Made by a program: the position numbers and the translations under genes. Under the pieces are notes generated by a model. It saw only the letters and a program-made list of their open reading frames with translations. It ran no database searches and was not told where the DNA came from. Shown here in pieces: positions 30,933 through 52,960 of a stretch of 64,000 nucleotides of DNA. How positions within the stretch are numbered: position 1 is the stretch's first letter; each line of letters begins with the position of its first letter. Source of the stretch: Loktanella sp. M215. GTDB taxonomy: Bacteria; Pseudomonadota; Alphaproteobacteria; Rhodobacterales; Rhodobacteraceae. The DNA lies in NCBI RefSeq assembly GCF_021735925.1, contig NZ_WMEA01000004.1, positions 310,001 to 374,000 of the forward strand. The letters are read 5' to 3'.

Positions 30933-33137
30933 TCATCCGGGATATTTTGTGGATTTCAGAAAAAAAGCCAATGCCGTTTGATCGACAGGTTTCAGAAGCA
31001 GATTGACATTTGCTTGCGCGCAAGCCGCGCCTAGGTCAGGTGTGCGGTCTGTGATCAGTAAACGGCAGGGGATGGGGCCGAACTGCGCCCGCAGACGCAC
31101 AGCTAGCGCCAGTCCCGCATGACCGTCGTTACTGGGATCGTCGATCAGCATTGCATCAGGCGTTAACTCAATTTCGGACAGCAGGGTAGAGGCTTCTGCA
31201 CCGCTGGCTACGTCCAGCACCTCGACACCCCAGCGCTCCATCTGTCCTGACAAGTCACGGCGCATCGCGCCGTCGGCCTCGACCAGAAGCACGATCAGAC
31301 CTGCCATGTCTATTGCTTTGGCAGGTACAGGTAGCGCCACATTGCGGTGCAAACCATTTGGGCGCGGGACCGTTAGGTGAAAGCAGGTCCCGCGCCCAAC
31401 TATGGTATGCATGCCGTGGTGATGATCGAGTAGCGCACAGGCGCGTTCCACGATGGCAAGCCCCAGACCAAGTCCGTTACCAGTATTAGCAACGGGGTCA
31501 ATACGATGAAATTCCTTATAGATGTTTTCCTCTTCTGAATGCGGAATGCCGGGGCCGGTATCCCAGACCTCGATTCGAACCGCATCACCGTCGGGGCGGG
31601 TGCCTACCAGAACGCGGCCTGCGCGCGTGTACCGAATTGCGTTCCCAATCAGATTTTGCAGTATTCTGCGGAGATAGCTTGCATCGGTCTGGACCAGCGC
31701 TTTCGAAGGCAAGATTCGCAGATCCAGCCCCTTGGCCTTTGCGGCGGGTCTTAACTCATCGCCCAACTGCCTTAGTACACGGCCCAGATCTACGGCGCTG
31801 ACCCGGACAGGTGCATTGCCGGATTCAAGCTGGCTGATATCCAGCAGCGCCCCGATGATATCCTCCACACTGTTCAGCGCATTCAGCGCCTTGGACAGGA
31901 TTTCAAGCTGTGCGGGCGCCAGATTATCATCGGCTACCGACGCACAATAAAGCTTTGCCGCCGAAAGCGGTTGCAGCAGATCGTGGCTGGCGGCGGCGAC
32001 AAACCGAGATTTCGATGCATTCGCCCGTTCCGCATCCGCCAGTGCCACGGCGATTTCCGCCGTGCGCGCTTCGACCCGCGCCTCCAGCAGATCATTTGCC
32101 GCCCGCAGCTCAGCCGCCGCCAGGCGTTCGGCGGTCACATCGGTAAAGCTGATGACAAAGCCTCGGTCTGGCATTTCCTGCGCAAAGATGTCGAACACGC
32201 GTCCTCGCCGCTGGCGCACCTCGAACCGCAGGGGCGGTCGGGGGACAGTGTCTTCGACCCAGGACAGTACTTGTGCCGGCCGAATGTCGGATTGGATGAG
32301 CAATTCGTCCTCCAACCGTCGGAACAGAAAGTCGAAATCGGCGCCGACTCGAAACTGTGTCAGTCTGATCGACAACATGTTGGCGACTTGCTGATTCCAG
32401 CCAACCAGGCGGTTCTCCTTGTTGAAAATACAGACACCTTGGTGGATGTGGTCCAGCGTCGCCCGGATCAGGGCGGTATGGTCGTCCATCAGGCGGGATC
32501 GCTCCTCACGTTCTAGCCGGATGATGTCTGTGACGTCGGTCTGCATGATGACGGTCTGACGGTCCGGCGTGCGCTGTTCTGATACTTGCAACCAGCGATC
32601 GCCAGCCATGTGGACGTTGAAGGCGACAGAATCGTCGCCATGGCGCGCCATACGTTGCCGCACCCAGTCATCAGGCGTAACTCGGTCTGGCAGCCGCAGG
32701 CTGGGGCTGCGCGATACAAGGTGTACGTATTGCGCAAAGGTCATGCCGGGCTTCAGCGCTTGCGCTACACTGGTCAGCGCGCTGGCAAAGCGGCTGTTAC
32801 ACAGCACTAAAACGTCGGCTCGGTCGAAAAGGGCAAAACCTTCGCCGATGGTCTCGATCGCGTTGGCCAGATCGCTGCGGGCGGCATCGGTGCTTTGCTT
32901 GGCCGCGGCCAGCTCGGTGTTGGATTGGTTCAGCAGCGCAAGTGCCAGTTCAAGTTCGCGCGTGCGGGCGCGGACTGTATCCTCCAGCAAGACAGCGCGT
33001 TGGAATTGGGCGTAGGCCGCGTCGGAATCGTTATTCATCTGCTCGACCCGCCGGATCAGCGCAGCAGAGATTGTCAAAAGTTTCTCGTTCTGGCGGTCGA
33101 TACTGTCGACGGGATTGATCAGCGATTGGGTGGTCAT
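30933..33137 (-). CDS. Hybrid PAS sensor histidine kinase / receiver protein (NahK/ErcS-like)
   Basis: A 734-residue soluble signalling protein with no membrane segment. Order: N-terminal coiled coil (about 15-90), PAS-like domains (about 90-210 and 220-340), coiled coil (345-375), HisKA with His385 in AAASHDLLQPLSAAK, HATPase_c (N box GNAIRYTRAGR, G boxes EVWDTGPGIP and GNGLGLGLAIVERA), and a C-terminal receiver (about 612-734; Asp in AMLIDDPSND, Lys in LLLKPVD). The acidic pair of the receiver is EAD rather than DD. Kinases of this type with a FIST partner regulate PQQ ethanol oxidation in pseudomonads. It overlaps the FIST gene by 4 bases. Confidence 0.87.
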   Translation of the reverse strand: MTTQSLINPVDSIDRQNEKLLTISAALIRRVEQMNNDSDAAYAQFQRAVLLEDTVRARTRELELALALLNQSNTELAAAKQSTDAARSDLANAIETIGEGFALFDRADVLVLCNSRFASALTSVAQALKPGMTFAQYVHLVSRSPSLRLPDRVTPDDWVRQRMARHGDDSVAFNVHMAGDRWLQVSEQRTPDRQTVIMQTDVTDIIRLEREERSRLMDDHTALIRATLDHIHQGVCIFNKENRLVGWNQQVANMLSIRLTQFRVGADFDFLFRRLEDELLIQSDIRPAQVLSWVEDTVPRPPLRFEVRQRRGRVFDIFAQEMPDRGFVISFTDVTAERLAAAELRAANDLLEARVEARTAEIAVALADAERANASKSRFVAAASHDLLQPLSAAKLYCASVADDNLAPAQLEILSKALNALNSVEDIIGALLDISQLESGNAPVRVSAVDLGRVLRQLGDELRPAAKAKGLDLRILPSKALVQTDASYLRRILQNLIGNAIRYTRAGRVLVGTRPDGDAVRIEVWDTGPGIPHSEEENIYKEFHRIDPVANTGNGLGLGLAIVERACALLDHHHGMHTIVGRGTCFHLTVPRPNGLHRNVALPVPAKAIDMAGLIVLLVEADGAMRRDLSGQMERWGVEVLDVASGAEASTLLSEIELTPDAMLIDDPSNDGHAGLALAVRLRAQFGPIPCRLLITDRTPDLGAACAQANVNLLLKPVDQTALAFFLKSTKYPG

Positions 33138-34282
33138 CTCACGATCGCCCCCGGCGGATAGATCGCTACACCGGTCATTGTCTGGTTGATGTGCAACCCA
33201 TTGTGCTGTTCGCCATAGGTCGAAAAGCCGACAACGTTGTGCTGCGCCAGCACTTGGCTGACGGCGCCGGTCTGCTGCTTCTGCTCCGCCTCAATCCGGC
33301 GCAAGATGCAATCAAATGCGATGATCGTATCCGGCACGGAGGTCGCGGACAGCGCGGATAATTCGCGCCCCAGATGATCGGCCATCGATTCCGACGTCGC
33401 CAGCGTCAGCACCATACCTTCGTCGATGGCCGAGAAGAACACCAATGCGCCGTCGCCGGTAACGCGCTGGATCGCCCGGACATGGTGCCGCCCGCCAAAC
33501 CGAACGACGACTGGATGCGAGGCAAAGGTAAAGGGATCGAGCTGCGCTGGATCCTTGCCGAGCAGGCGGGCGTATTCGGATGCGGCGTTTTCGGCGTTGA
33601 TCTCGTGTACAATTCTGGCCTCGGGATCGGCGCGGGTAACCACCATGCGCCGGTCGGTCGGCGTAAGGTTGTCGAGGCTGAAGACCTTCACCGGGCAGAT
33701 CGTGCGCACGCAGGTTATAACGGCGACGTTTTCCATGACTTTACCATCATAGCCCACGGCCGTTGTGGTGAACCGTGTTCCGTCCCCCGATGATCCGCCG
33801 AAGAGCGGCACCTGACCTAGCCCGTGCATAACCATGGCAACGACTGCGTCCTCGCGCCGCGACAACCCATCGATCAGCAGGATCGCGAACTCGTGGTTCC
33901 AATGCGGGGCCACGGCTTTCAGCGCCGCGCGCTTTCGAATGATGTTGCGCACCGTCTTGTTCGGGTCCAGCGCGTGCAGATCTGGAATAAGAACTGTCTC
34001 GGTCTCGAAATGACTGACGGGCAACCCGATCGCAACGATACCACCTTCGCGATAGCCTTCGTTAATCTCTCCTGCAGTAATGCAGCCGATGACGGTGGTG
34101 CCGGACAGCGTATCGGTTAAGTCGGCGATCAACGCGGCAAATGCTGTGGAAGGGGCGGCGAAGACGGCGACCAGCGACAGCGGGTCTTCTCCCAGTTCGG
34201 CACGGATACGTGTTGCGGCATCCGGGCCAGGGTCAGCTATGTGAACCCGGCGCACCAATGCACCCTGTTGCGCGACACTCAT
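33134..34282 (-). CDS. FIST N/C-domain sensor protein
   Basis: A 382-residue FIST protein: the N-terminal domain (about 30-220, with TTVIGCITAGEINEGYREGG and VPLFGGSSGDG) and the C-terminal domain (about 230-365, ending FSTYGEQHNGLHINQTMTGV). FIST domains are thought to bind small molecules, possibly amino acids, and feed signal to kinases; the mechanism is not settled. It lies between the response regulator (36-base gap) and the hybrid kinase (ATGA overlap), so all three are co-transcribed and probably form one sensing pathway for the alcohol-oxidation genes. Confidence 0.87.
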   Translation of the reverse strand: MSVAQQGALVRRVHIADPGPDAATRIRAELGEDPLSLVAVFAAPSTAFAALIADLTDTLSGTTVIGCITAGEINEGYREGGIVAIGLPVSHFETETVLIPDLHALDPNKTVRNIIRKRAALKAVAPHWNHEFAILLIDGLSRREDAVVAMVMHGLGQVPLFGGSSGDGTRFTTTAVGYDGKVMENVAVITCVRTICPVKVFSLDNLTPTDRRMVVTRADPEARIVHEINAENAASEYARLLGKDPAQLDPFTFASHPVVVRFGGRHHVRAIQRVTGDGALVFFSAIDEGMVLTLATSESMADHLGRELSALSATSVPDTIIAFDCILRRIEAEQKQQTGAVSQVLAQHNVVGFSTYGEQHNGLHINQTMTGVAIYPPGAIVR

Positions 34283-34318
34283 GAAAATCCACTCCCAGAG
34301 ATGAACGAGACTGATGTG

Positions 34319-35014
34319 TCAGGGGATTTTTTGCAACAGGTTGGAATAGCTTGCCTCTTGCGCGATCAGGACCGCCTGCGTGCGACTCTGCACGCTCAGC
34401 TTGCGCATGATTGCGGTAATATGTGCCTTTACAGTGGTTTCAGCAATGGACAGGTCATAAGCAATCTGCTTGTTGAGTTTGCCTTCGCAGATCAGTTGCA
34501 GGATCGTGCCTTGCTGTCGGGTAAGCTGACGCAAGCGCGCGACAGCGTCCTCCCGGTCGGTAACGGGGACTTCGGCACCTTCGGTCATATCGATGTTGTC
34601 GGGCAGCCAGGTCTGACCCATGGCCACCGCCTGAAACGCTGCGCGAAAGGTGTCGCGATGGGAATGTTTTGGCACAAATCCTGAGGCACCGGCTCGAATC
34701 GCGGCGCAAATGATCCGGTGATCGGCCATCGAGGACACAACAACTAGCGGCACCTGCGGCACGCTACGGTGCAGCCGAATCAATCCGTCAAGACCGGTTA
34801 CATCAGGCAGGTTCAGGTCCAGTACGATGACATCCGGGGCAGGGCCATTCTGCGCAGCTGCCAGCGCGGGTTCAAGACGATCAAACACATTGATTGTTTC
34901 AATTCCCGTTACGGCCCGCAGGGTCAGGCACAAGGCATCACAGAACAGCGGATGATCGTCGATGATCATCGCGGTAGCGGTGCTGCCGAAAGGATGCTGG
35001 GCATCGGGGGGCAT
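34319..35014 (-). CDS. LuxR/NarL-family response regulator (ErbR/ExaE-like)
   Basis: A 231-residue two-domain regulator. The receiver has the acidic pair in MIIDDHP (19-20), phospho-Asp66 in VIVLDLNLPDVTG and Lys in GFVPKHS. The HTH near the C-terminus is LTRQQGTILQLICEGKLNKQ, then AYDLSIAETTVKAHI. The start at 35014 is preferred because GAGGA lies seven bases upstream; an ATG at 35032 has none. The gene follows the PQQ dehydrogenase gene on the same strand and precedes FIST and the kinase. By analogy with pseudomonad ExaE/ErbR it should activate the dehydrogenase region. Confidence 0.85.
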   Translation of the reverse strand: MPPDAQHPFGSTATAMIIDDHPLFCDALCLTLRAVTGIETINVFDRLEPALAAAQNGPAPDVIVLDLNLPDVTGLDGLIRLHRSVPQVPLVVVSSMADHRIICAAIRAGASGFVPKHSHRDTFRAAFQAVAMGQTWLPDNIDMTEGAEVPVTDREDAVARLRQLTRQQGTILQLICEGKLNKQIAYDLSIAETTVKAHITAIMRKLSVQSRTQAVLIAQEASYSNLLQKIP

Positions 35015-35082
35015 CGGGTTATCCTCTGGCATCAGACTGACGCGGTGCGGCCTGCTTCGCAAGACTGCGTCAGATGGTAGTT

Positions 35083-35106
35083 GGGCGCACCTTTGCAGAT
35101 GCGCCC
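35083..35106 (-). promoter_or_regulatory. Intercistronic hairpin after the PQQ dehydrogenase gene
   Basis: GGGCGCA (35083-35089) and TGCGCCC (35100-35106) form a perfect 7-base stem with a 10-base loop just past the dehydrogenase stop. There is no T-run on either side, so it is more likely an mRNA 3'-stabilising or attenuating structure than a complete terminator. It would let the dehydrogenase be made in excess over the downstream regulators. Confidence 0.4.
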
Positions 35107-35117
35107 GGTCATGAAGC

Positions 35118-36881
35118 TTAGTTGGCGGCCAACTGCCGGGGCAGCTTGAACGTCCACAGCATGCCACCTTGATTCAAGTAGCTGACGGTTTGCGCGACCT
35201 CGCCACCCCAAAGCGGCACAGCACCGCCCCAGCCCGACATGATCGCAACATACTGCTCGCCGTCTTCTTCCCAGGTCACGGGCTGACCCACGACTCCAGA
35301 TCCGGTCTGGAACGACCACAGCTTTTCGCCCGTCTCGTCATCGAAGGCGATAAACTCGCCTTCCGGTGTGCCGGTGAACACCAGACCGCCGGCGGTGGAC
35401 ATCACTCCGCCCCACAGCGGCGCTGGGTTCTTGAACTCCCACTTGATGTCACCGGTATCGGGGTCGATCGCCTTCAGAGAGCCAATGTAATCGTCATACA
35501 ATGGCTTGATGGTAAAGCCGGACCCGAGATACGCCGCGCCCTGCTTGTAAGTGACGGGCTCGTTCCAAATATCCATGCCCCATTCGTTGGAAGGCACGTA
35601 GAAATTGCCGGTGTGTTGGCTGTAGCTGACCGGCATCCAGTTCTTGCCACCAAGGAACGACGGCACGGCAAAGACGGTCTCACCCTTGGCCCCATCAGCG
35701 GCGGCCGTGGGATCGCCCGGACGGTTTTCCTCGTTGAAGATCGGCCGCCCGGTGTCATCGATACCCGATGCCCAACTGATCTGCGTGACAAAGGGGCTGG
35801 CGCTGACAAATTTGCCGTCCTCACGGTTCAGCACGTAAAAGAATCCGTTACGGTCCGCCGTGCCAAAGCGCTTGTTGCCTTCACGGTCGGTGTAGGCCAC
35901 GACTTCGTTCACGCCGTCGTAATCCCAGCCTTCACGCGGTGTGGTTTGGAAATGCCACTTGATCTCGCCTGTTGCCGGGTCGAGACCGACGCGGGAGGCA
36001 GCATAAAGGTTGTCGCCGGTGTTGCCGTCGACGGGCGTGCCCGCATTGCGCAGGTGGCTATTCCAGGGCGACGGGTTGCCTGCGCCGAAAACCAGTGTGT
36101 CCGTGTCTGCGTCATACGATCCACCCAACCAGGTCGCACCGCCGCCCGTCTTCCACATGTCGCCAGGCCATGTCGCGTTGAGCGTACCGGTCATGGTGGA
36201 TTCTTCGCCGTTCAAAGTGCCCATATGGCCTTCGATCATTGGGCGGGTCCAGACGATCTCTCCGGTTTCCGCATTGCGCGCCTGCACTTCGCCAACGATG
36301 CCGAATTCACCACCCGAATTACCCGTGATGACTAGGCCGTTCACGATGATCGGTGCGGCGGTGTATGAATATCCGGCTTTGTAATCCGCGATTTTCTGAT
36401 TCCACACCACGTCGCCAGTCTTGCGGTTCAGCGCGACCATGCGCGCGTCCAGCGTACCGAAATAGATGTTGTCACCATAAATCGCTGCACCGCGGTTCAC
36501 TACGTCGCAGCAGGGCAGAATGCCTTCGGGCAGACGGGCGTCGTATTGCCAGACTTCCGCGCCGGTTTTCAGGTCCACCGCATAGATGCGGGAATACGAC
36601 CCGGTGATATACATCATGCCGTCATAGATAATCGGCTGAGTTTCCTGACCGCGCTGCTTTTCGCCGCCGAGGCTGAAGGCCCACGCTGGTACCAGATTGG
36701 CCACGTTATCCTTGTTCAGCGTTTCCAATGGGGAATAGCGCTGAAGACTGCGGCCCATCCCGTTGGTGACGATCTGCGTCGTGATCGTGGCATCGTTGGC
36801 AATGTCGTCTTCGGTGACTTGTGCCTGCGCCATGCTGCCCGCCAATATCATGGCCGTTGCAGCGGTAATGAACCTGTTCAT
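35118..36881 (-). CDS. exaF: Lanthanide-type PQQ-dependent alcohol dehydrogenase (ExaF/PedH-like)
   Basis: Periplasmic quinoprotein that oxidises primary alcohols and passes electrons to cytochrome c. The start at 36881 has GGAGGAG upstream; the signal peptide is [20 protein letters not shown]. The 587-residue eight-bladed propeller shows the adjacent disulfide Cys124-Cys125 (ILPCCDVVN), metal ligands Glu192 (SGGEFG) and Asn274 (SPWNSH), catalytic Asp320 and the extra Asp322 in GWDYDGVNE. That second Asp is the known marker of lanthanide rather than calcium use. The [18 protein letters not shown] and [15 protein letters not shown] segments place it with ExaF/PedH ethanol dehydrogenases rather than XoxF. 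Leu/Met-type loop differences could shift substrate range. Confidence 0.88.
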
Positions 36882-37091
36882 CCGCGTTCTCCTCCCGGTT
36901 GATGTGTCGTTTTCTCCCCGGTCCTCGCCGCGTAGGTGACGCTGGGTCCGACCTGCGGATACTATCGGCGTGAAGGCGTTGCGGTGAAATGACACCATGG
37001 TCGTAGTCGGAGGCACGTGAACTTTACGGCTTAGGTCTCATTCCCCTAACTGTGTGATGATATAAGTTGTGCGATGACAGGGGAGACTTTC

Positions 37092-38060
37092 ATGACAATC
37101 CAAACTGCGGTGGCTGCCGTCCTTCTGGCCCTGACCGCCACCTTTGCCAGCGCGCAGGACGCCACGATCCGTGTCGCGGTGCAGGAATCGGGAACAGTCA
37201 ACTGGGAACTGGACACGATCAAGCATTACGGGTTCGACACCGAAAACGGCTTTACCCTCGATGTGCAGGGGATGGCGGGGGGCGACGCGGCACAGATCGC
37301 ATTTCAGGGCGGGGCGGTCGACATGATTGTCAGCGACTGGATCTGGGTCGCGCGACAAAGGGCGGCGGGCGCAGATTTCGTGTTCATTCCCTACAGCCGT
37401 GCTGTGGGAGGCATGCTGGTGCCTGCCAATAGCACCGCACAGACGCTAGCAGATATGAAGGGCCGCAAAATCGGTATTGCGGGCGGGCAACTTGACAAAA
37501 GCTGGATCATCCTGCGCGCCTATGCCCAGCAGGAATACGGCTTTGACCTTGCCACTGAGACGGAACAGGTCTTTGGCGCTGCGCCGCTGATCATGAATGC
37601 GGCCACGACAGGTGAAGTCGATGGCGCGATCAACTTCTGGCACTTCTTGGCCAGGATGAAGACCGCGGGAATGCGGGAACTGATCTCTGTCGATACGGCC
37701 GCCGCCGCGTTGGGCCTTGATCCTGCGACGCCGCTGCTGGGCTACGTCGTGCGCGGCGACATGCTGCGCAATCAGCCCGAACTTGTCGCAGGCATGGCCA
37801 AGGCCAGTGCCGCGGCAAAGGCGAAACTCGCGTCGGACACCGCGGCTTGGGCGCGCCTGCGTGACCGGATGCGCGTCGATGATGATGCGCAATTCGTGGC
37901 CTTGCAGAACGGGTTCAACGCGGGCACCCCCGCACCGGGTGCCGTCAATCTGGACGCCGCCGACAAGATGCTAAAGGTCATGGCGGATCTGGGCGGCACG
38001 GACCTGGTCGGCGACGTGACCGCGCTGCCGGACGGCCTGTTCTATACCCCGGCCGAATGA
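37092..38060 (+). CDS. NitT/TauT-type ABC substrate-binding protein
   Basis: Periplasmic binding protein of 322 residues. The start at 37092 has GGGGAGA upstream and gives a Sec signal (MTIQTAVAAVLLALTATFASAQ). The domain is SsuA/TauA/NMT1-like: IRVAVQESGTVNWELDTIKH, FQGGAVDMIVSDWIWVARQR and GRKIGIAGGQLDKSW. It is divergent from exaF and coupled to its ATPase (ATGA). The matching permease is probably at 52121-52960. Substrate is unknown; position in PQQ alcohol loci suggests a cofactor, metal complex or carbon substrate, all inference. Confidence 0.82.
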   Translation: MTIQTAVAAVLLALTATFASAQDATIRVAVQESGTVNWELDTIKHYGFDTENGFTLDVQGMAGGDAAQIAFQGGAVDMIVSDWIWVARQRAAGADFVFIPYSRAVGGMLVPANSTAQTLADMKGRKIGIAGGQLDKSWIILRAYAQQEYGFDLATETEQVFGAAPLIMNAATTGEVDGAINFWHFLARMKTAGMRELISVDTAAAALGLDPATPLLGYVVRGDMLRNQPELVAGMAKASAAAKAKLASDTAAWARLRDRMRVDDDAQFVALQNGFNAGTPAPGAVNLDAADKMLKVMADLGGTDLVGDVTALPDGLFYTPAE

Positions 38061-38668
38061 CCGTCGTCAGCCTTGATCTGCCAGGATTTTCGTTTGGTGG
38101 GACCCCGGTGCTGGGTCCGCTGGCGCTGACCGTGGATCGTGGCGAGACACTAGCCCTGACCGGCCCGTCCGGGATCGGTAAATCCACCTTGCTGCGGATC
38201 ATCGCGGGCGTCCATGCCGCAAGCGGCACACGCCGGATCACCGGGCGCGTGGCGTTCGTGTTTCAGGAACCGACGCTGCTGCGCTGGCGCACTGCGCGGC
38301 GCAATATCGAGATTGCGGCGAAGATCGGTGCGCCCATGGCGTTGGCCGCCTTGCGAGAAGTGGGCCTTTCGGATTTCGCGGATCGCTTTACGGATCAGTT
38401 GTCGCTGGGTCAGCAGCGCAGGCTGTCGCTGGCCCGCGCCTTTGCCTGCGATCCGGACCTGATGTTGCTAGACGAACCTTTCGTGTCGCTGGACGCCGCC
38501 GCCGCGGATGACATGATGACCCTGTTCGCTGCCCTACGCGCACGGCACAATATGGCGTCCATACTGGTTACCCACGCGACTGATGAAGCTCAACGCCTTG
38601 CCACGCGCATCCTGACCCTGTCGGGCCACCCCGCGACGATAACAGCAGACACCTTTGCACCGGCCTAA
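38057..38668 (+). CDS. ABC transporter ATP-binding protein (importer, NitT/TauT-like)
   Basis: A compact 203-residue ATPase with Walker A GPSGIGKSTLLR (near 36-47), Q-loop FVFQEPTLLRWRTARRN, signature LSLGQQRRLSLARA, Walker B LMLLDEPFVSLD and H-loop LVTHATDEA. The signature is LSLGQ instead of LSGGQ. It is shorter than the usual 250 residues, losing part of the helical region and C-tail. It overlaps the binding-protein gene by 4 bases. No permease follows here; the likely partner is at 52121-52960. Confidence 0.85.
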   Translation: MTVVSLDLPGFSFGGTPVLGPLALTVDRGETLALTGPSGIGKSTLLRIIAGVHAASGTRRITGRVAFVFQEPTLLRWRTARRNIEIAAKIGAPMALAALREVGLSDFADRFTDQLSLGQQRRLSLARAFACDPDLMLLDEPFVSLDAAAADDMMTLFAALRARHNMASILVTHATDEAQRLATRILTLSGHPATITADTFAPA

Positions 38669-42826: not shown

Positions 42827-42979
42827 GGACTCCTCTTGGCTGCGACGTTAACACCCGCTCCTGCGCATGTGGCATACGACCAAGGTCGCCCTCCCTGAGG
42901 GCATGGCACAAAGGTCCAATACCGAACAGGACGCGATGCGGTTTATGACTTGTGCCGACGCATCTGGGAGGAGACAAAA

Positions 42980-45168: not shown

Positions 45169-45651
45169 ATGAAGATTTCGATGGTTGTGAACGGTCGTTC
45201 GGTTGCTGGTGATGTTGAGGGCCGGACATTGCTGGTGGATTTTCTGCGTCAGGATCTGCATCTGACGGGGACGCATGTGGGGTGCGACACGTCGCAGTGC
45301 GGGGCGTGCACGGTGCATGTGGACGGGTTGCAGGTGAAGGCCTGCAGCATGTTCGCGGTGGAGGCGGACGGTGCGGAGGTGGCCACGATCGAGGGGGTGG
45401 CTGCGGCTGACGGGACGCTGTCTGCGATCCAGCAGGCGTTCCAGGATCACCACGGGCTGCAGTGCGGGTTCTGCACGCCGGGGATGGTGATGGCGGCGGC
45501 GAGTTTGCTGAAGGAGAACCCCAGGCCCAGCGAGGCGGAGGTGCGGCACCACCTGGAGGGCAACATCTGCCGCTGCACGGGCTACCATAACATCGTGAAG
45601 GCGATCATGGCGGCGTCGGGGCAGGAGATGCCGGCGCTGGCGGCGGAGTGA
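45169..45651 (+). CDS. coxS: Molybdenum hydroxylase small subunit, 2Fe-2S (CoxS)
   Basis: Electron-transfer subunit of the xanthine-oxidase-family enzyme. The 160 residues carry two clusters: the plant-ferredoxin type with Cys39, Cys44, Cys47 and Cys59 ([17 protein letters not shown]), and the second one in [10 protein letters not shown] plus [11 protein letters not shown]. It moves electrons between the Mo site of CoxL and the FAD of CoxM. From here to coxM the codons are strongly G-ended and richer in G+C than the flanking genes, which suggests separate ancestry. Confidence 0.9.
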
Positions 45652-45686: not shown

Positions 45687-45770
45687 CATTGTTCTTGAAC
45701 CAATGGCGAACAATGACGATCCCCGGCTTCGCCTCCCCCCGAAGTATTTCAAACCAGAAGAAGCAGGGGG
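45687..45770. repeat. Intergenic repeat between coxS and coxL
   Basis: An 8-base inverted repeat, CATTGTTC (45687-45694) / GAACAATG (45708-45715), is followed at 45736-45770 by a stretch reading CCCCCGAAGTATTT and then ACCAGAAGAAGCAGGGG. The second part recurs almost unchanged at 48208-48241 between coxL and coxM. An in-frame ATG at 45703 would translate through this copy into coxL. Confidence 0.7.
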
Positions 45771-45810
45771 AGGGGCGCATGCGTCCGACCTGCAGGGAGA
45801 GGACCAGATC

Positions 45811-48174
45811 ATGCCCAAGGACAGCGGAATCGGTGCCAGCAGCAAGCGGCGCGAGGATGTGCGGTTCCTGACCGGAACCGGCAATTATACGGACGACATC
45901 AACATCTATGGCCAGCTGCACGTGCATTTCCTGCGCGCGGATGTGGCGCATGCCAAGTTGAACGGTGTGGACACGGCTGCGGCCGCGGCGATGCCGGGGG
46001 TGCACCGGATCTTTACGGGTGCCGACTTCGAGGCGGTGGGCGGTCTGCCCTGCGGCTGGCTGATCACTGACCGGCATGGGGCGCCGATGCAGGAGCCGCG
46101 GCACCCGGTGCTGGCGCAGGGCAAGATCCGGCACGTGGGCGAGCCCATCTGTGCGGTGGTGGCCGACACGCTGGCCCAGGCCCGCGACGCGGCGGAGGCG
46201 ATCGTGCTGGACTACGACACGCTGCCGGCGGTCATCGACATGAAGGAGGCGGTGAAGGCGGATGCGCCGAAGGTGCACGACGATCTGACCGGCAACCTGT
46301 GCTATGACTGGGGTTTCGTGGAAGACAACCGGCAGGCGGTGGACGACGCGATCAAGGGGGCTGCGCATGTCACCACGCTGGAGCTGGTGAACAACCGCCT
46401 CGTCGCCAACCCGATGGAGCCGCGTGTGGCCGTGGGCGAGTACAACCGCGCCGACGACATGCACACGCTGCACACCACGAGCCAGAACCCGCATGTGATC
46501 CGGCTCTTGATGGGGGCCTTCGTGCTGGGCATTCCGGAACACAAGCTGCGGGTCGTGGCCCCCGACGTGGGCGGCGGGTTTGGGACCAAGATCTTTCACT
46601 ACGCGGAGGAAGCCTTCTGCACCTTTGCGGCCAAGGCGCTGAACCGGCCGGTCAAGTGGACCAGCACGCGGTCCGAGGCCTTCATGTCCGACGCGCACGG
46701 GCGCGACCATGTGACCAAGATCGAGCTGGCGCTGGACAAGGACAACAACTTTGTCGCGGTCCGGACCGAGACCTATGCCAACATGGGGGCGTATCTGTCG
46801 ACCTTCGCGTCCTGCACGCCGACCTGGCTGCACGGCACGCTGATGGCGGGCAATTACAAGACGCCGCATATCTACGTGAACGTGAAGGCGGTGTTCACCA
46901 ATACCGTCCCCGTCGATGCCTATCGCGGTGCGGGCCGTCCCGAGGCCACGTTCCAGCTGGAGCGGGTGATCGACATGGCGGCGCGCGAGCTGGGCGTCGA
47001 TCCGATCGCGCTGCGGCGGCAGAACTTCATCACCACGTTCCCCTATGCGACGCCCGTGGCGGTGGAATACGACACCGGCGATTACCATGCGACGATGGAC
47101 AAGCTGATCGACATCGCGGACTTTGCGGGCTTCGACGCGCGGCGCAAGGCGAGCGAGGCGACGGGCAAGCTGCGCGGTCTGGGCGTGAACTGCTACATCG
47201 AGGCCTGCGGCATCGCCCCCAGCAACCTGGTGGGACAGCTTGGCGCGCGGGCGGGTCTTTATGACGCGGCCACGGTGCGGGTGAATGCGACGGGGAGCAT
47301 CAGCGTCATGGTCGGCGCGCACAGCCACGGGCAGGGGCACGAGACGTCCTTCCCGCAGGTGATTTCCGAGATGATCGGCATCCCCGAGGACCAGATCGAC
47401 ATCGTGCACGGCGATACCTCCAAGATCCCCTTCGGGATGGGCACCTATGGCTCGCGGTCGCTGGCCGTCTGCGGGTCCGCGATGGTGCGGGCCGCCGAGA
47501 AGGTGATCAACAAGGCCAAGAAGATCGCGGCCCACCTGATGGAAGCCTCTGAGGGCGACATCGAGCTGAAGGACGGGCGGTTCAGCGTGGCGGGCACGGA
47601 CAAGTCCGTGGCCTGGGGCGACGTGACGCTGGCGGCCTATGTGCCGCACAACTATCCGCTGACGGATATCGAGCCGGGGCTGGAGGAGACGGCGTTCTAC
47701 GACCCGGCCAACTTCACCTATCCCTCTGGCGCCTATGCCTGCGAGGTGGAGCTGGATCCGGAGACGGGGCATGTGAAGATCGAGCGCTTCTCGGCGGCGG
47801 ATGACTTCGGCAACATCATCAACCCGATGATCGTGTCGGGGCAGGTGCACGGCGGGATCGCACAAGGCATCGGTCAGGCGATGCTGGAAGGCTGTGTCTA
47901 TGACAGCGACGGGCAGCTCTTGAGCGCGTCCTACATGGACTACGCGATGCCGCGGGCGGAGGATGTGCCGTTCTACACGGTGGACCATTCCTGCCAGACG
48001 CCCTGCACCCACAACCCGCTGGGCGTGAAGGGCTGCGGCGAGGCGGGGGCGATCGGCAGCCCGCCGAGCCTGGTCAATGCGGTGCTGGACGCAATCAACT
48101 CGGGGGGCGGCAAAAAGGTCGCGCATATCAACATGCCGCTGACGCCGAGCCGCGTCTGGGCGGCGATGCAATAG
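45811..48174 (+). CDS. coxL: Molybdenum hydroxylase large subunit, form II (CoxL-like)
   Basis: Mo-MCD-binding catalytic subunit. The start at 45811 gives MPKDSGIGASSKRREDVRFL, the usual family N-terminus, after GGGAGAGG; an ATG at 45703 would add 36 codons running through the intergenic repeat. The 787 residues contain the active-site loop AYRGAGR at 370-376, the form II signature, not the AYxCSFR of true form I CO dehydrogenase. The Mo-site Glu is expected in GVKGCGEAGAIGSPPSL near the C-terminus. Form II enzymes have uncertain substrates, often aldehydes or N-heterocycles; next to an alcohol dehydrogenase an aldehyde is plausible. Confidence 0.88.
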   Translation: MPKDSGIGASSKRREDVRFLTGTGNYTDDINIYGQLHVHFLRADVAHAKLNGVDTAAAAAMPGVHRIFTGADFEAVGGLPCGWLITDRHGAPMQEPRHPVLAQGKIRHVGEPICAVVADTLAQARDAAEAIVLDYDTLPAVIDMKEAVKADAPKVHDDLTGNLCYDWGFVEDNRQAVDDAIKGAAHVTTLELVNNRLVANPMEPRVAVGEYNRADDMHTLHTTSQNPHVIRLLMGAFVLGIPEHKLRVVAPDVGGGFGTKIFHYAEEAFCTFAAKALNRPVKWTSTRSEAFMSDAHGRDHVTKIELALDKDNNFVAVRTETYANMGAYLSTFASCTPTWLHGTLMAGNYKTPHIYVNVKAVFTNTVPVDAYRGAGRPEATFQLERVIDMAARELGVDPIALRRQNFITTFPYATPVAVEYDTGDYHATMDKLIDIADFAGFDARRKASEATGKLRGLGVNCYIEACGIAPSNLVGQLGARAGLYDAATVRVNATGSISVMVGAHSHGQGHETSFPQVISEMIGIPEDQIDIVHGDTSKIPFGMGTYGSRSLAVCGSAMVRAAEKVINKAKKIAAHLMEASEGDIELKDGRFSVAGTDKSVAWGDVTLAAYVPHNYPLTDIEPGLEETAFYDPANFTYPSGAYACEVELDPETGHVKIERFSAADDFGNIINPMIVSGQVHGGIAQGIGQAMLEGCVYDSDGQLLSASYMDYAMPRAEDVPFYTVDHSCQTPCTHNPLGVKGCGEAGAIGSPPSLVNAVLDAINSGGGKKVAHINMPLTPSRVWAAMQ

Positions 48175-48187
48175 GGTGAGGGGGTGT

Positions 48188-48241: not shown

Positions 48242-48277
48242 ACTGCGGGGCTGGTCACAGGACAAGGATAAAACATC

Positions 48278-49066
48278 ATGTATGCATTCGAGATCGAACG
48301 GCCCACGACGCTGGCTGATGCGGTGGCGGCGATTGCGGGCGGCGGGCAGGCGCTGTCGGGCGGGCAGACGCTGATCCCGACGCTGAAGGCGCGGCTGGCG
48401 GACCCGGGGCGGCTGGTCAGCCTGCACAGCATTCCGGAGCTGAAGGGGGTCTGCACCGACGACGCGGGCCGCATCTGCATCGGCGGGGCCACGACCCATG
48501 CGCAGGTGGCGCGGGAGGCGGCGGCGGGCTATCCGGCGCTGGCGCATCTCGCGGCGCGGATCGGCGATCCGGCGGTGCGCAACCGGGGCACGATCGGCGG
48601 GAGCCTGGCGAACAACGACCCCTCGGCCTGCTATCCGGCGGCGGCGCTGGGGTCCGGTGCGGTGATCGTGACCAACACGCGCGAGATCGCGGCGGACGAT
48701 TATTTCCAGGGCATGTTCGCGACCGCCCTGGAGGAGGGCGAGATCGTGACGCAGGTGAAGTTCCCGGTGCCCGTGGCTGCGGCCTACGAAAAGTTCATCC
48801 AGCCCGCGTCGCGGTTCCCGCTGGTGGCGGTCTTCGTGGCGCGGTTTGGCGACGGCGTGCGCGTGGCGATCACCGGCGCGTCCGAAGGCGGCGTGTTCCG
48901 CTGGACGCAGGCCGAAGAGGCGCTGACCGCCCGCTTCGACCCCGCATCCCTGGACGGCATCGCGATGGACCCCGACACCATGATCGCCGACCTGCACGGT
49001 GACAAACCCTACCGCGCGCACCTCTGCAACGTTATGGCCAAACGCGCGGTGAAGGCGGCGATATAA
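48278..49066 (+). CDS. coxM: Molybdenum hydroxylase medium subunit, FAD-binding (CoxM)
   Basis: Flavin subunit of the Mo enzyme, 262 residues. The FAD-binding domain covers about 1-160 with the motifs AGGGQALSGGQTLIPTLKAR and TIGGSLANNDPSACYPAAAL, which hold the pyrophosphate and isoalloxazine. The CO_deh_flav_C domain follows (about 165-262). A typical AAGGAT site precedes the ATG. It closes the coxG-S-L-M unit, and a strong terminator follows. No coxD/E/F maturation genes are present locally, so Mo-cofactor insertion must use factors from elsewhere. Confidence 0.9.
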   Translation: MYAFEIERPTTLADAVAAIAGGGQALSGGQTLIPTLKARLADPGRLVSLHSIPELKGVCTDDAGRICIGGATTHAQVAREAAAGYPALAHLAARIGDPAVRNRGTIGGSLANNDPSACYPAAALGSGAVIVTNTREIAADDYFQGMFATALEEGEIVTQVKFPVPVAAAYEKFIQPASRFPLVAVFVARFGDGVRVAITGASEGGVFRWTQAEEALTARFDPASLDGIAMDPDTMIADLHGDKPYRAHLCNVMAKRAVKAAI

Positions 49067-49089
49067 GCACCATTCGAGAGGTATATGAC

Positions 49090-49120
49090 CCCCCGTCGCA
49101 CGGATGCGGCGGGGGTTTTT
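49090..49120 (+). terminator. Rho-independent terminator after coxM
   Basis: CCCCCGTCGCA (49090-49100), loop CGGA, TGCGGCGGGGG (49105-49115), then TTTTT (49116-49120). The 11-base stem has a single mismatch (G-T type). It lies 24 bases past the coxM stop and just before the convergent apbE stop, so it may act for both directions. Confidence 0.85.
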
Positions 49121-49984
49121 CTATGCGGTGGTGAGGTTACCTGCGGTGTCAATCAGGCGCGCCGTCACGCCAGGCAGGCGGGACAGGGTCGCGCGGATCG
49201 CCATGCGATCCATCAGGCAGAACCCTGTGGACAGCGCGTCTGCCATAGCGGCGGTAGGGGCGGTGATGCTGACTGTGGACCAGTGCGGCGCGGCACCGTC
49301 GCGGGACAGGATATGCGGCTGACCGCCGACCATCAGCGCGGCGGGGCTGGATGTCGCGATCGCTTGTCCGGTCAGGGTGGTTTGCGCCAGCACACCGAAC
49401 GCCGGATCGGCGATTGCGACATGCCAAGGGCCACCTAATGCGCGGTATTCGCCAATGTTGATCAGAGCTCTGGTAAAGCCTAGGGCGGCCAATTCGGCGG
49501 TGACGACATCCGTTGCAAAGCCTTGAGCGATTCCGTTGAAGGTCAGCGTCTGACCGGAGGCGAGGGTAATGCCGCTTGCATCCAGCGTCACAGCCGTCCA
49601 GTCGATCAAACGCCGTGCGGCGGCGATGTCACCGCCCGTGGCAAGCGCCGTCCACAAAGATTGCACCGTGGGGTCGAAACAGCCAGAGGTCAGGGCATGA
49701 ACCTGTCCCGCTATCCGGCAAAGGTCAAGCATCTCTGGCGGGAGGGCGGGCAGTATACCTGTGGCGTTCAGCAGGGTCAGTTGAGAGGCGCGGTAGAGGC
49801 TGAAGAGCTTCTCCATCCGCATCAGGGTGGCTCGGACCTGTGACAGGGCGGCGTCAGACCCTGGCCCGGTCAGGGTGACTGATACATCGGCCCCAAGTGC
49901 CGTGCCTTGCCACACGGATGCCTTTGACCCGCACGGACAGACGAGTGTGCCAGCGATCAGGGTGAGGAAGCGGCGGCGCTTCAT
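49121..49984 (-). CDS. apbE: FAD:protein FMN transferase
   Basis: Attaches FMN covalently to a Thr/Ser of target proteins in the periplasm. The start at 49984 overlaps the stop of the NosR-like gene (ATGA); the product is 287 residues. The N-terminus MKRRRFLTLIAGTLVC looks like a twin-arginine or Sec signal. Family motifs include GIAQGFATDVVTAELAALG, NIGEYRALGGPW and MADALSTGFCLM, the D-A-x-S-T metal/flavin site. Its coupled neighbour carries the expected acceptor motif, so the NosR-like protein is its probable client. Confidence 0.87.
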   Translation of the reverse strand: MKRRRFLTLIAGTLVCPCGSKASVWQGTALGADVSVTLTGPGSDAALSQVRATLMRMEKLFSLYRASQLTLLNATGILPALPPEMLDLCRIAGQVHALTSGCFDPTVQSLWTALATGGDIAAARRLIDWTAVTLDASGITLASGQTLTFNGIAQGFATDVVTAELAALGFTRALINIGEYRALGGPWHVAIADPAFGVLAQTTLTGQAIATSSPAALMVGGQPHILSRDGAAPHWSTVSITAPTAAMADALSTGFCLMDRMAIRATLSRLPGVTARLIDTAGNLTTA

Positions 49985-52056
49985 GCAGCTTTCCTGCGGT
50001 CGCGGGCCGCTAGGATCAGCGGGACGCATTGTTTCGGGTCGTCGTGAATCGTCACGCAATCCAGGCATTGAAAGCATTCATCATACTGGATCTCTCCGGT
50101 TTTCTTAATCGCACCGTATTTGCATTTGACGCGGCACAACTGGCAGGGTGATCCGCAATCCGCACGGCGGGGAATCCATGACCGCGTGCGGATCATACCA
50201 CCAATCGCCATGACGGCCCCCAAGGGGCAGACGTAGCGGCAAAAGCCTTTGAACGTCACCATACCAAGGATAAGCCAGAAGGCGGCGTAGATGACGTAAT
50301 ACCAGTCCCGGACAAAGAAGACGGTGATGGCGGTCTTGAAAGGTTCGATTTCCGCGACCTTGTCAGTGCTGTCGGGGGCTATGAAAATCGTGGCGACAAG
50401 GCCCGCGAGCAGGACGTATTTGATCCACTTCAGGCGCTGGTCCCATGTCCGGTTGACCTCCCATTGCGGCAGGCGCAACAGGCGACCTAGATGGTGGGCA
50501 AATTCCTGCAACGCACCAAAGGGGCAAAGCCAGCCGCAGAACAACCCGCGCCCCCACAGCACAAATCCTGCTATGGCGACGACCCAGATCAGCGTTCCGA
50601 ACGGATCATAAAGCAGAAAGTTGAAAGACCCGCCAAAGACCGTGGTGCGGATTACGCCCAGCACCGTGACGATGCTAAGTTGCCCTTGCCCCCACCAACC
50701 GACGAAGCCCAGCACGAAAGCAAGAATTGCCAGGCGCACCGGTGTAAAGCCCGTCAGTGCAGCAAAGCGTTTTTGCCCGGGTCCCAGAACCACAAGCAGG
50801 CCCATAAGGAATACGCCCAGTACGATCAAGTCGGATTGGCGATTGCGCACGGCGCCCGCAAAGGGGCTCTCGGCGACCTCCTCGACCGGGCGTAGATAGA
50901 ACCGGTCCGGTGTGGCATGGGTCGCGGTAAGAGTGGTCTGACCGATTTGCGGCATGAATTGACCGTGTTCACGAATTGCTTGTACGTTCAGTGTCCATTC
51001 ACGCGTCGGATCGAAGCCAAGACGGCGGTCGGTGCGCAAGATGATCGCAGTGCCCTGCGGCGCCTGCGGTGACAGAGTCACGAAGAGGTCCGCGTCGCGC
51101 AATGCGATGGGGAGTTTGTCCTGTTCTGCCGAAAGCCAATCCGGAGATGTGTTACGGACGAAGTCAGGACTCACAAGGCCGTGGCGGCCCGCATCGATCA
51201 ACAGGATTGGTTCATCCGTTTTGGAAATACGCTGGAATGCTTGCAATTCTCGCAAAGTTTGCGGACTGAGGGCGGCTGCGGCGATAGATTGCGCGCCAAT
51301 ATCGACGACGTAGAGATCCAGATAGACGCCATCTGGATCGGCCTGTGCCACAGGGTCGTCGTTCACGAAGACGGTGCCCGCGAAGGCGGCGTTGACCTCT
51401 TTGTTCAGGACAGTTTTGCGGGTCACTAAGCCGTCTGCGACCAACGCGTTCCAATCGAGGTCTTCGGTGTACTCCGGATTTGGATATGCAGGCGGCGCCG
51501 ACGCCACGCCCTGCATCTTTTCTCGGGCCACAGCGCGAGTCGCGGCAAGGATGCTTTCGTGTGCGATACGGATAGAAGCCGTCGCCTTGGTCACACCGTC
51601 CAGATAGATCAGCGCCGATCCTTCACCTGCGCCGCCATAAGGATTGCCGACGACAAGGCTCTGATTGATCGACAGACCACGGTATTGCTCAAAGAATTTA
51701 CGAAGGGGCGCTTCGCCCAGCCCCGAAACGAAGATTGGCTCGTTATGGGAAATCAGGCGTACGTCCATGAAGGTGCCGTTCAGGTCCAGCATAACAAAAA
51801 TATTGATAGGCGCGCCGGAAAAGCCGGGCAGTGGTGCCATTTCTTCCGTTTCAAAGACATAACCGGCGAGTGCACCACCAGAATTGAGCAGCTCCCAAAC
51901 ACCCTTCTCGTTTATCGGCTCTCCGATGGAAAAGGGCGGCATGACGAAAGGTTCAAGATCGGCCTTGGTCAGTTGCGCATGAGCGGTCTGCGGCCCGGCA
52001 AAGGTCGCCAAGCAGACGGTCAGACACAGCAAAAGAATACGCACGGCTCCACCCAT
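49981..52056 (-). CDS. NosR/NirI-like membrane flavo-iron-sulfur protein
   Basis: A 691-residue electron-transfer protein. Order: signal peptide (MGGAVRILLLCLTVCLATFA), periplasmic FMN-binding domain (about 30-200) with the acceptor motif DGVTKATASIRI, a periplasmic linker, about five membrane helices from about 405, and cytoplasmic cysteine clusters FCGWLCPFGALQE and FCRYVCPLGAVMA plus CGSPCQLCRVKC and CFQCLDC for two 4Fe-4S centres. NosR serves N2O reductase, but no nos genes are here. A role in passing electrons to or from the periplasm in alcohol oxidation is inference. Confidence 0.85.
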   Translation of the reverse strand: MGGAVRILLLCLTVCLATFAGPQTAHAQLTKADLEPFVMPPFSIGEPINEKGVWELLNSGGALAGYVFETEEMAPLPGFSGAPINIFVMLDLNGTFMDVRLISHNEPIFVSGLGEAPLRKFFEQYRGLSINQSLVVGNPYGGAGEGSALIYLDGVTKATASIRIAHESILAATRAVAREKMQGVASAPPAYPNPEYTEDLDWNALVADGLVTRKTVLNKEVNAAFAGTVFVNDDPVAQADPDGVYLDLYVVDIGAQSIAAAALSPQTLRELQAFQRISKTDEPILLIDAGRHGLVSPDFVRNTSPDWLSAEQDKLPIALRDADLFVTLSPQAPQGTAIILRTDRRLGFDPTREWTLNVQAIREHGQFMPQIGQTTLTATHATPDRFYLRPVEEVAESPFAGAVRNRQSDLIVLGVFLMGLLVVLGPGQKRFAALTGFTPVRLAILAFVLGFVGWWGQGQLSIVTVLGVIRTTVFGGSFNFLLYDPFGTLIWVVAIAGFVLWGRGLFCGWLCPFGALQEFAHHLGRLLRLPQWEVNRTWDQRLKWIKYVLLAGLVATIFIAPDSTDKVAEIEPFKTAITVFFVRDWYYVIYAAFWLILGMVTFKGFCRYVCPLGAVMAIGGMIRTRSWIPRRADCGSPCQLCRVKCKYGAIKKTGEIQYDECFQCLDCVTIHDDPKQCVPLILAARDRRKAA

Positions 52057-52120
52057 GTGCCGACACTAAGAACAGGAAAGTGGAACGAACATAGGACCAA
52101 AGTCGCGGGACGGAGGCGGA

Positions 52121-52960
52121 ATGTTGACGCTGGTCAAGGCAACCCGCACCATACAGTGGGGAGTGACGCATTTGCACCAAAGGATAACATCAACCTCAAT
52201 CACGGCAGCGTCTCTGCTTGCGCTGATTGTACTGTGGGCCGTTGCCGCCTGGTGGATCGATACGCCACGCACATTTCCGGCACCGCACCGCGTCGCGGCG
52301 ATTATGTGGACCGAGGCGGCGAGCGGCAAACTGCTGCACCATCTGATCCCAACTCTGGTGCGTGTCACGCTGGCGTTCGTCATCTCAATGTCAATCGGAG
52401 TCGTGCTTGGGATCATGCTAGGCACGATGCCGCGCCTAAACAGATGGCTAGACCCATGGGTTGTCGTGGCGCTGAACATACCTGCGCTGGTGGTGATCGT
52501 GATGTGCTATCTTTGGATCGGGTTGAACGAAACGGCGGCGATTGTGGCCGTCAGCTTCAACAAAACGGCAACGGTGATCGTGACCGTGCGAGAAGGGGCG
52601 CGGGCGCTGGATCGCTCATTAAAGGATATGACCCAAATCTTTAGCCTGTCGAGGATCGCCCGTCTTCGCCATGTCGTGATCCCCCAGCTAGCGCCTTATC
52701 TATCGGCAGCAGCGCGCAACGGCCTTGCAATCATCTGGAAACTAGTTCTTGTCGTCGAGTTTCTGGGACGACCGGACGGTATCGGTTTTCAAGTCCACCT
52801 GTATTTTCAGCTTTTTGAAGTACCATACATCATGGCCTACGCCTTGTCCTTTATCGTGGTCATGTTGGGGATCGAATACGGGATTATGCAACGGATTGAG
52901 TCCAAAGCAACGCGATGGAGACAAACCGGTATAATTTTCAGCCGCCGTTCATTGGTGTGA
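52121..52960 (+). CDS. ABC transporter permease (NitT/TauT-like)
   Basis: A 279-residue membrane subunit with about six helices and the coupling region DMTQIFSLSRIARLRHVVIPQ (about 168-188), typical of SsuC/TauC permeases. GGAGG lies just before the ATG. No binding-protein or ATPase gene adjoins it. The only unpaired NitT/TauT-type binding protein and ATPase in the window are at 37092-38668, so these three probably form one importer separated by the rest of the alcohol-oxidation locus. It is divergent from the NosR-like gene. Confidence 0.82.
   Translation: MLTLVKATRTIQWGVTHLHQRITSTSITAASLLALIVLWAVAAWWIDTPRTFPAPHRVAAIMWTEAASGKLLHHLIPTLVRVTLAFVISMSIGVVLGIMLGTMPRLNRWLDPWVVVALNIPALVVIVMCYLWIGLNETAAIVAVSFNKTATVIVTVREGARALDRSLKDMTQIFSLSRIARLRHVVIPQLAPYLSAAARNGLAIIWKLVLVVEFLGRPDGIGFQVHLYFQLFEVPYIMAYALSFIVVMLGIEYGIMQRIESKATRWRQTGIIFSRRSLV

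Follow-up and report, generated by a model that had tools for sequence, protein, structure and literature searches.

We analysed a 64,000-nucleotide stretch of Loktanella sp. M215 (hereafter the window), part of a 456 kb contig in a genome of 5.2 Mb. At 30933-52960 it carries a cluster built around exaF, the gene for an alcohol dehydrogenase dependent on pyrroloquinoline quinone (PQQ), in which the genes of a form II molybdenum hydroxylase, coxG-coxS-coxL-coxM, stand immediately 3' of pedF-xoxJ. From left to right, genes for a kinase, a NosP-like protein, a response regulator and ExaF (minus strand) are followed by those for the binding protein and ATPase of an importer (plus), a Sel1-like protein, PedC, PedB, PedA2 and PedA1 (minus), PedF, PedG/XoxJ, CoxG, CoxS, CoxL and CoxM (plus), ApbE and a NosR-like protein (minus) and the importer permease (plus; Table 1). 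Open reading frames and starts in the loci were chosen by codon or coding score. Domain and model matches placed ExaF, the sensing genes, the cytochrome, the XoxJ-like protein, CoxG-S-L-M and NosR/ApbE where the original prediction had put them; PqqE is encoded outside the cluster, at C1:595788 of the same genome. The prediction had further named two ABC systems. One is PedA1A2BC, and the other is a single NMT1/Tau-type importer split over both cluster ends (37074-38668 and, as its likely permease, 52121-52960); the three genes are contiguous in three other loci (L072, L073 and L079).

ExaF passes its family model, and its best solved relatives are the quinoprotein ethanol dehydrogenase entries 6zcv and 6zcw. 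Its motif GWDYDGVNE retains D-x-D, the mark of lanthanide-type PQQ dehydrogenases, which is kept in 80/80 ExaF loci. The proposed ExaF/PedH-like, lanthanide-type assignment thus holds, and by its sequence the enzyme probably uses lanthanide. Five TIGR models for PedF and PedA1A2BC also pass their cut-offs. The models for NosR and for the NosP/NahK pair do not, and gene order is conserved for the pair. NosR-like/ApbE genes could be seen in 22 of the 43 ExaF loci with unlinked cox and in 16 of the 37 with linked cox (neighbourhood counts throughout rest on stretches of limited length), so they belong with exaF whether or not cox is there; we accordingly rejected them as a dedicated electron acceptor of CoxSLM. 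Two families of small proteins, F30 (no Pfam match at 1e-5) and F41_189, recur in ExaF clusters (L067:7687-8145 and L079:3741-4310). The window's genome also has a second PQQ cluster (L167, G000:C1:580000-599900) with a PedA1A2BC-like set, PQQ biosynthesis genes and a PQQ dehydrogenase 38% identical to ExaF.

The cox genes are form II by their S-L-M order, the loop AYRGAGR, found in 59/59 CoxL loci, and the absence of the CuSMo cysteine. The form I loop AYxCSFR is absent from the CoxL of the window, on which ground we set aside an identity as carbon monoxide (CO) dehydrogenase. The CoxL motif GVKGCGEAG presumably holds the catalytic Glu. None of the NCBIfam models for CoxS, CoxL and CoxM passes its cut-off: TIGR02416 is best for CoxL (636 bits, cut-off 991), and glyceraldehyde dehydrogenase models (NF041018/041019/041020) are best for CoxS and CoxM and second for CoxL. 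The best solved match of CoxL is CoxL of CO dehydrogenase (8uem), and after the CO dehydrogenases come quinoline 2-oxidoreductase and 6-hydroxypseudooxynicotine dehydrogenase. Maturation genes are absent from the cluster, and CoxD/CoxE-type proteins are encoded elsewhere in the genome. Full-strength CoxE-type proteins occur in 16/16 coxL-bearing genomes examined; three genomes without coxL (G053, G023 and G049) gave matches of only 27-34 bits. The form I and form II loops are as given in PMC13240472 (papers are cited by PMC number, and each statement refers to the part of the text that was available).

Table 1. Features of the exaF-cox cluster, in positions of the window
Feature	Position	Strand	Evidence and remarks
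PedS1/NahK(ErcS')-like histidine kinase	30933..33137	-	PAS_7, HisKA, HATPase_c; best NCBIfam NF041831 NahK/ErcS' 343 bits, cut-off 1500 missed
NosP-like FIST-domain sensor	33134..34282	-	FIST/FIST_C; NF041558 NosP 369 bits, cut-off 450 missed
ErdR/AgmR-like LuxR-type response regulator	34319..35167, start probably 35032 (coding score)	-	Response_reg + GerE; NF041830 ErdR 160 bits, cut-off 390 missed
ExaF/PedH-type PQQ alcohol dehydrogenase, lanthanide-type D-x-D	35118..37016 open frame, start probably ~36881	-	TIGR03075 756 bits, cut-off 480 passed; signal peptide by eye
Operator-like site 5' of exaF	36988..37007	-	score 21.3, matrix trained without own genus
NMT1/Tau-type binding protein, split importer	37074..38060	+	PF09084
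ATPase, split importer	38057..38668	+	PF00005
Sel1-like small protein, present in many ExaF clusters	38687..39211	-	PF08238 26 bits, below cut-off
PedC permease	39215..40180, start probably 40003	-	TIGR03861 433 bits, cut-off 241 passed
PedB ATPase	40000..40746	-	TIGR03864 334 bits, cut-off 302 passed
PedA2 beta-propeller	40716..41678	-	TIGR03866 489 bits, cut-off 287 passed
PedA1 binding protein	41675..42826	-	TIGR03863 462 bits, cut-off 414 passed
Operator-like site between divergent pedA1 and pedF	42873..42892	+	score 10.8; CATACGACCAAGGTCGCCCT
PedF cytochrome c-550	42980..43675	+	TIGR04494 162 bits, cut-off 122 passed; start by coding score
PedG/XoxJ-like periplasmic protein	43675..44577	+	PF00497; name taken from position beside pedF
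CoxG	44597..45145	+	PF06240 118 bits
CoxS, 2Fe-2S subunit	45169..45651	+	Fer2_2/Fer2; no signal peptide by eye
CoxL, form II molybdenum subunit	45703..48174	+	MoCoBD; AYRGAGR
CoxM FAD subunit	48278..49066	+	PF00941 (FAD_binding_5)
coxSLM block, near-identical to copies elsewhere in genome	45166..49059	+	likely conversion tract
ApbE flavin transferase	49121..50077, start probably 49915	-	PF02424
NosR-like membrane Fe-S protein	49981..52056	-	NF046105 440 bits, cut-off 1000 missed; Fer4_5
Permease, split importer	52121..52960	+	PF00528

Linkage of coxGSLM to exaF and the ExaC slot

We surveyed 121 relatives and, on a larger scale, 394 family genomes, with roughly one for each genus. Among the relatives, 15 have exaF (in G010 a copy just 55% alike), and 81 have a CoxL-type protein at E<=1e-150, paralogues of 41-48% being counted in. 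Of the family genomes, 78 carry exaF, and 69 of these also carry CoxL at E<=1e-250, equivalent to at least 56% identity. The gene lies within 25 kb of exaF in 36 of the 78 and far off or on another contig in 33; nine have none. By our own estimate, chance would place a random gene within 25 kb in a 4 Mb genome in about one of the 69 cases. The neighbourhood survey that the original prediction had proposed thus shows form II coxL beside exaF as a recurrent arrangement, and a cluster unique to this genome was rejected on the same count. Linked coxL is on the opposite strand to exaF in 36/36 genomes, in 35 of them on the same side and divergent, with G175 on the other side. Directly after xoxJ comes coxG in 34 of the 37 linked loci (the 36 plus G008; exceptions G165, G175 and G419). 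Median gaps are 10 bp for pedF-xoxJ (n=35), 81 bp for xoxJ-coxG (n=33), 48.5 bp for coxG-coxS (n=30), 76 bp for coxS-coxL (n=24) and 94.5 bp for coxL-coxM (n=20), a spacing so short that the run from pedF to coxM resembles an operon.

The 36 linked genomes are a lower bound, since in two counted as unlinked, G038 and G161, coxG or coxG-coxS follows xoxJ at a contig end, and since G375, one of the nine lacking coxL, has an exaF-linked coxG-coxS-coxM (L132, 13185-15064). In this last locus the match to coxS stops at 14257 and that to coxM begins at 14279, through either a deletion or an assembly artefact. G161 and G038 also have small contigs holding little but coxSLM (L171, G161:C13, 3910 bp; L014, G038:C35, 3780 bp), which are possibly collapsed identical copies like those of the window's genome. 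In two further genomes a lone coxG stands between xoxJ and apbE with coxL elsewhere (L104 in G242, L108 in G133); its product may work with a partner from outside the operon.

A second sample of 80 named ExaF loci, overlapping the first, had coxG, coxS or coxL in view in 27, three of which show only coxG before the stretch ends, and in 0/11 loci that their record titles assign to Rhizobiaceae genera, Rhodospirillaceae or Pelagibius. Named linked strains include Loktanella salsilacus DSM 16199 (L172), Tateyamaria omphalii KCTC 12333 (L238), Litoreibacter ascidiaceicola DSM 100566 (L178) and Sagittula marina DSM 102235 (L243). The supercluster also occurs on plasmids of Sulfitobacter sp. S223 (L252), Ruegeria sp. 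THAF33 (L253) and Pseudosulfitobacter pseudonitzschiae (L255), with pqq genes adjoining it in the first two. Two genomes show different joinings: exaF is beside XdhC-F5-CoxSLM in G165, and in Amylibacter kogurei (G175, L184) a CoxD-CoxE-XdhC-F5 cox operon, its CoxL 56% alike, lies against exaF on the other side. Where exaF is not nearby, coxGSLM adjoins the histidine kinase, NosP and response regulator genes in G050 and on Ruegeria plasmid pTHAF33_a, the response regulator gene in G041, and PedC/PedB plus an NMT1-type importer in G009. No ExaF match was found at E<=1e-150 in G050, G041 or G009; Ruegeria sp. THAF33 has exaF on a plasmid other than pTHAF33_a.

In two genomes (G194 and G396) the same-strand gene after xoxJ encodes the acetaldehyde dehydrogenase ExaC (NF050026, 921 and 918 bits, cut-off 900), of which Pseudomonas putida PedI is tabulated as a homologue (PA1984 exaC; PMC12997753). 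Across the 78 ExaF genomes ExaC is present in 18, namely 6 of the 9 without coxL, 9 of the 33 with unlinked coxL and 3 of the 36 linked ones (linked versus rest, Fisher p=0.006; permutation trend p=0.0002; these and the following tests ignore kinship). Aldehyde dehydrogenase genes near exaF follow the same pattern, with 7 of 43 unlinked against 0 of 37 linked loci (p=0.013) and, in the second sample, 8 of 53 against 0 of 27 (p=0.046). The window's genome has no ExaC at E<=1e-240. The sole aldehyde dehydrogenase match in the window (5827-7239) is 37% identical to an ExaC-type query and lies about 24 kb from the cluster.

Other coxSLM loci and near-identical copies

We read 35 coxL neighbourhoods in detail, 6 linked and 29 unlinked. 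In 14 of the 29, XdhC and F5 precede coxS and PQQ genes are absent, and 11 of these 14 also have a CoxE-type protein. F5 (334 aa) has no match in Pfam at 1e-5 or in NCBIfam at 1e-10. A tree was built from 59 CoxL sequences, 30 of them linked; its bootstrap had not settled. Here the label 'linked' requires 18 changes, against a shuffled mean of 20.0, and well-supported branches force 9 or more of these, so a single inheritance of the linkage, with one plasmid, does not account for it. CoxL sequences from linked and from standalone loci fall into no separate clades, and same-genus sequences form one clade (100/100) regardless of place.

In G003, of the same genus, the other locus keeps CoxD-CoxE-XdhC-F5 with coxSLM gone, and the exaF-linked CoxL is its only close CoxL. 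CoxD-CoxE are likewise kept in G046 and G060, with no XdhC, F5 or coxSLM seen within the 10 kb read. The window's genome has four near-identical coxL copies, one of them (L031) at the CoxD-E-XdhC locus. The two others, L032 and L033 (G000:C1), have broken coxM or coxL frames and adjoin NosR fragments and importer genes, what is left of an exaF-type neighbourhood; this suggests a second supercluster, since broken up. Aligned with the other own copies, the window is 66-76% identical up to the start of coxS, 97-100% identical from there on, and 77-88% identical past the end of coxM. At third codon positions its coxL shares 93-96% with the own copies, compared with 74% for the standalone gene of G001, and 64% (G003) and 56% (G008) for the syntenic genes. 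Judging from these comparisons, gene conversion best explains the near-identity, one copy having later been lost in other lineages, and CoxSLM appears to be exchangeable with the copy at the CoxD-CoxE-XdhC locus. Homogenisation is not universal, as the two coxL copies of Ruegeria sp. THAF33 are only 87% alike.

An operator-like DNA element

A 20-position matrix was trained solely on regions upstream of exaF, from which the window's genus had been excluded. It finds a site in 75/77 training upstreams (consensus CTTACGACCATTGTGCAATT) and in 3/3 exaF upstreams of the excluded genus. Among genes outside the training set, sites scoring 8 or higher precede pedF in 43/61, divergent pedA1 in 42/61, the regulator gene in 24/49, nosR in 12/18 and exaC-type genes in 3/4, compared with 5/307 unrelated neighbour genes; none was found before coxL (0/29), coxM (0/26) or infC (0/13). 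In the window the promoter sites lie at 36988-37007 and 37023-37042 (exaF) and at 42873-42892 (pedF/pedA1). Where exaF is absent from the locus, coxG still has a site in 4/13 cases (L079, L081, L082 and L087; p=0.0002), and the L087 site falls between the regulator gene and coxG, which share one strand. A second, stricter pattern, palindromic and drawn up once these promoters had been inspected, precedes coxG in 15/55 exaF loci and 4/12 others (3/11 without L253, a plasmid whose exaF lies beyond the stretch read), pedF in 14/101, exaF in 4/145 and unrelated genes in 0/1009. Of the 19 strict coxG sites (L253 included), 17 lie 51-59 bp 5' of the start codon. From the neighbourhood we infer that the ErdR/AgmR-like regulator binds the element.

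Interpretation and wider context

The reading that we prefer, at a probability of about two in three, is that the cluster is a ped/exa-type alcohol-oxidation regulon in which the form II molybdenum hydroxylase encoded by coxGSLM takes the place of ExaC/PedI, the NAD-dependent acetaldehyde dehydrogenase. Four lines (the ExaC slot, the inverse ExaC pattern, the regulator neighbourhood and the shared DNA element) point to aldehydes, and the molybdenum enzyme probably oxidises those made by ExaF. In such a pathway ExaF, probably with lanthanide, would oxidise primary alcohols in the periplasm and pass electrons to PedF; the aldehyde would enter the cytoplasm and be hydroxylated to the acid by CoxSLM. 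We take CoxSLM as cytoplasmic, with ExaF and PedF periplasmic, because CoxS has no export signal by eye. CoxG would bring CoxSLM to the membrane, its electrons going to the quinone pool, and the ErdR/AgmR-type regulator would switch on both oxidation steps through the shared operator. CoxSLM would be the enzyme that other family members keep at the CoxD-CoxE-XdhC locus, and would borrow the maturation factors of that locus. As for CoxG, Oligotropha mutants lacking it have regular CO dehydrogenase and grow slowly on CO, in Sulfolobus a soluble dehydrogenase reaches the membrane by way of CoxG-like proteins (PMC4240915, PMC11962113), and CoxG has been described as a quinone-binding partner of the Mo-CO dehydrogenase (Kropp et al. 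2025, as cited in PMC13240472).

The coupling of a PQQ alcohol dehydrogenase to a form II molybdenum hydroxylase, as originally predicted, therefore stands in part: linkage in 36 of 78 genomes, ExaC at the same slot in two, the inverse ExaC pattern and the shared element speak for it, whereas coxL is unlinked in 33 of the 78 and 14 of 29 unlinked neighbourhoods are XdhC-F5-CoxSLM loci without PQQ genes. These unlinked loci bear out half of what the original prediction had named as refuting it. Further observations weigh against it. ExaC is also absent from 24 of the 33 ExaF genomes with unlinked coxL, where another aldehyde route must exist, and occurs elsewhere in three linked genomes (G042, G046 and G172). 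One of the seven aldehyde dehydrogenase neighbours (G398) is a 39% relative and not ExaC, and in linked G070 a 38% relative stands some 6 kb away from exaF, outside the compared stretch. Deletion of pedI in Pseudomonas has little effect, making slot sharing weaker evidence than it appears, and ped-cluster PQQ dehydrogenases are described as oxidising both alcohols and aldehydes, so that a second enzyme could be dispensable (PMC12997753). CO oxidation by some form-II-only bacteria is reported in PMC5747140.

Parts of the promoter evidence weigh on the same side, including the after-the-fact origin of the strict pattern. Five of eight window sites scoring at least 8 lie outside the exaF and pedF promoters (30053, 32728, 33207, 43866 and 55103), four of the five within genes, and simulated windows average 1.4 sites. 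The coxG of the window lacks its own site and would have to rely on the pedF promoter. In 9 of 13 exaF-less loci a score of 8 is not reached before coxG, and the coxG sites of L079, L081 and L082 could serve the divergent neighbour instead. No site precedes CoxD in the nine unlinked-type loci (0/9); its upstreams in linked genomes score 9.5 (G003), 9.0 (G060) and -1.4 (G046). Within 20 kb around the other three own coxSLM copies a score of 9 is not reached.

We weighed three other accounts. coxGSLM may belong to the same regulon and act on another substrate arising with alcohols, such as an N-heterocycle or aromatic compound, while ExaF or another dehydrogenase makes acid from the aldehyde. 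The solved relatives that follow the CO dehydrogenases, the failure of CoxS, CoxL and CoxM to pass any NCBIfam cut-off, the missing ExaC in the 24 genomes with unlinked coxL and the extra NMT1/Tau-type importer all fit this account; slot sharing and the inverse genome-wide pattern with ExaC do not, nor does the high rank of the glyceraldehyde dehydrogenase models, even if below cut-off, and we consider it rather unlikely. A CO dehydrogenase feeding electrons from CO into an alcohol oxidiser's chain would agree with the best NCBIfam model and best solved match of CoxL and with the report on form-II-only bacteria, but AYRGAGR in place of AYxCSFR speaks against it, and form II CO activity is called unresolved, with CO probably not the physiological substrate (PMC13240472, PMC6794299); we give this account very little credence.

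Neighbourhood would be uninformative about function if the cox genes had simply hitchhiked on shared plasmids or islands, as the Sulfitobacter, Pseudosulfitobacter and Ruegeria plasmids and the 456 kb contig here might suggest. The order and strand common to 34 of the 37 loci, the three or more distinct joinings, the short gaps, the shared element and the changes of linkage on the CoxL tree make this improbable. Beyond substitution for ExaC in the cluster itself, it is an even call whether the roseobacter form II enzyme is a general aldehyde oxidoreductase, encoded by one exchangeable coxSLM cassette that sits at the CoxD-CoxE-XdhC locus or in the ExaF operon, is kept alike by gene conversion and replaces ExaC, both oxidation steps feeding the respiratory chain.

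All parts belong to known families, and the system is a variant of ped/exa. With the Pseudomonas putida ped cluster (PP_2663-PP_2680), whose gene names are used here, it shares NosP, PedS1, an AgmR/ErdR-type regulator, PedA1A2BC, PedF, PedG and a PedH-type dehydrogenase (PMC12997753); it has coxGSLM where ped has PedI/ExaC, and adds the NosR-like protein, ApbE and the split importer. M. extorquens exaF with its PedF/PedG-like neighbours falls in the same closest group. Roseobacter form II 'CO dehydrogenase' (coxSLM) has the loop and gene order in common, its orthologues lying on one tree, but its commonest other locus is (CoxD-CoxE-)XdhC-F5-CoxSLM without PQQ genes, whereas in the window coxSLM belongs to an exaF operon that includes coxG but no maturation genes. 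Form I Mo-Cu CO dehydrogenase shares the subunits and CoxG; here the CoxD/CoxE-type proteins are encoded elsewhere and the AYxCSFR loop is absent. PaoABC and archaeal glyceraldehyde oxidoreductase share S, M and L subunits, with good scores below cut-off. PaoABC is periplasmic, unlike what the CoxS of the window, lacking an export signal by eye, would indicate.

That the composition was undescribed proved partly correct: neither it nor the replacement of ExaC or the shared element was found in the open-access literature searched, mostly at listing level, yet only the cox genes, NosR/ApbE and the split importer lack a match in the Pseudomonas ped cluster. In the available main text, 'molybd' and 'nosr' have zero occurrences in PMC12997753, as have 'molybd', 'carbon monoxide' and 'xanthine' in PMC11996626 and PMC5934484. 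As late as June 2026 form II coxL was described as having no resolved function (PMC13240472), and its gene context now supplies a specific class of substrates to test. It also puts in question the annotations 'xanthine dehydrogenase family protein' and 'carbon monoxide dehydrogenase subunit G'. If our preferred reading is true, lanthanide-type alcohol oxidation can also depend on molybdenum; if the wider one of a general aldehyde oxidoreductase is true, the role of form II CoxL would be settled.

Directly right of the cluster, at 53292-59310, lies a complete Shango defence system (SngC, SngB and SngA; PADLOC 3e-266, 4e-171 and 2e-84). Beyond it, an AAA ATPase at 60608-61819 matches the AbiLi and AriA models and is possibly another defence gene.

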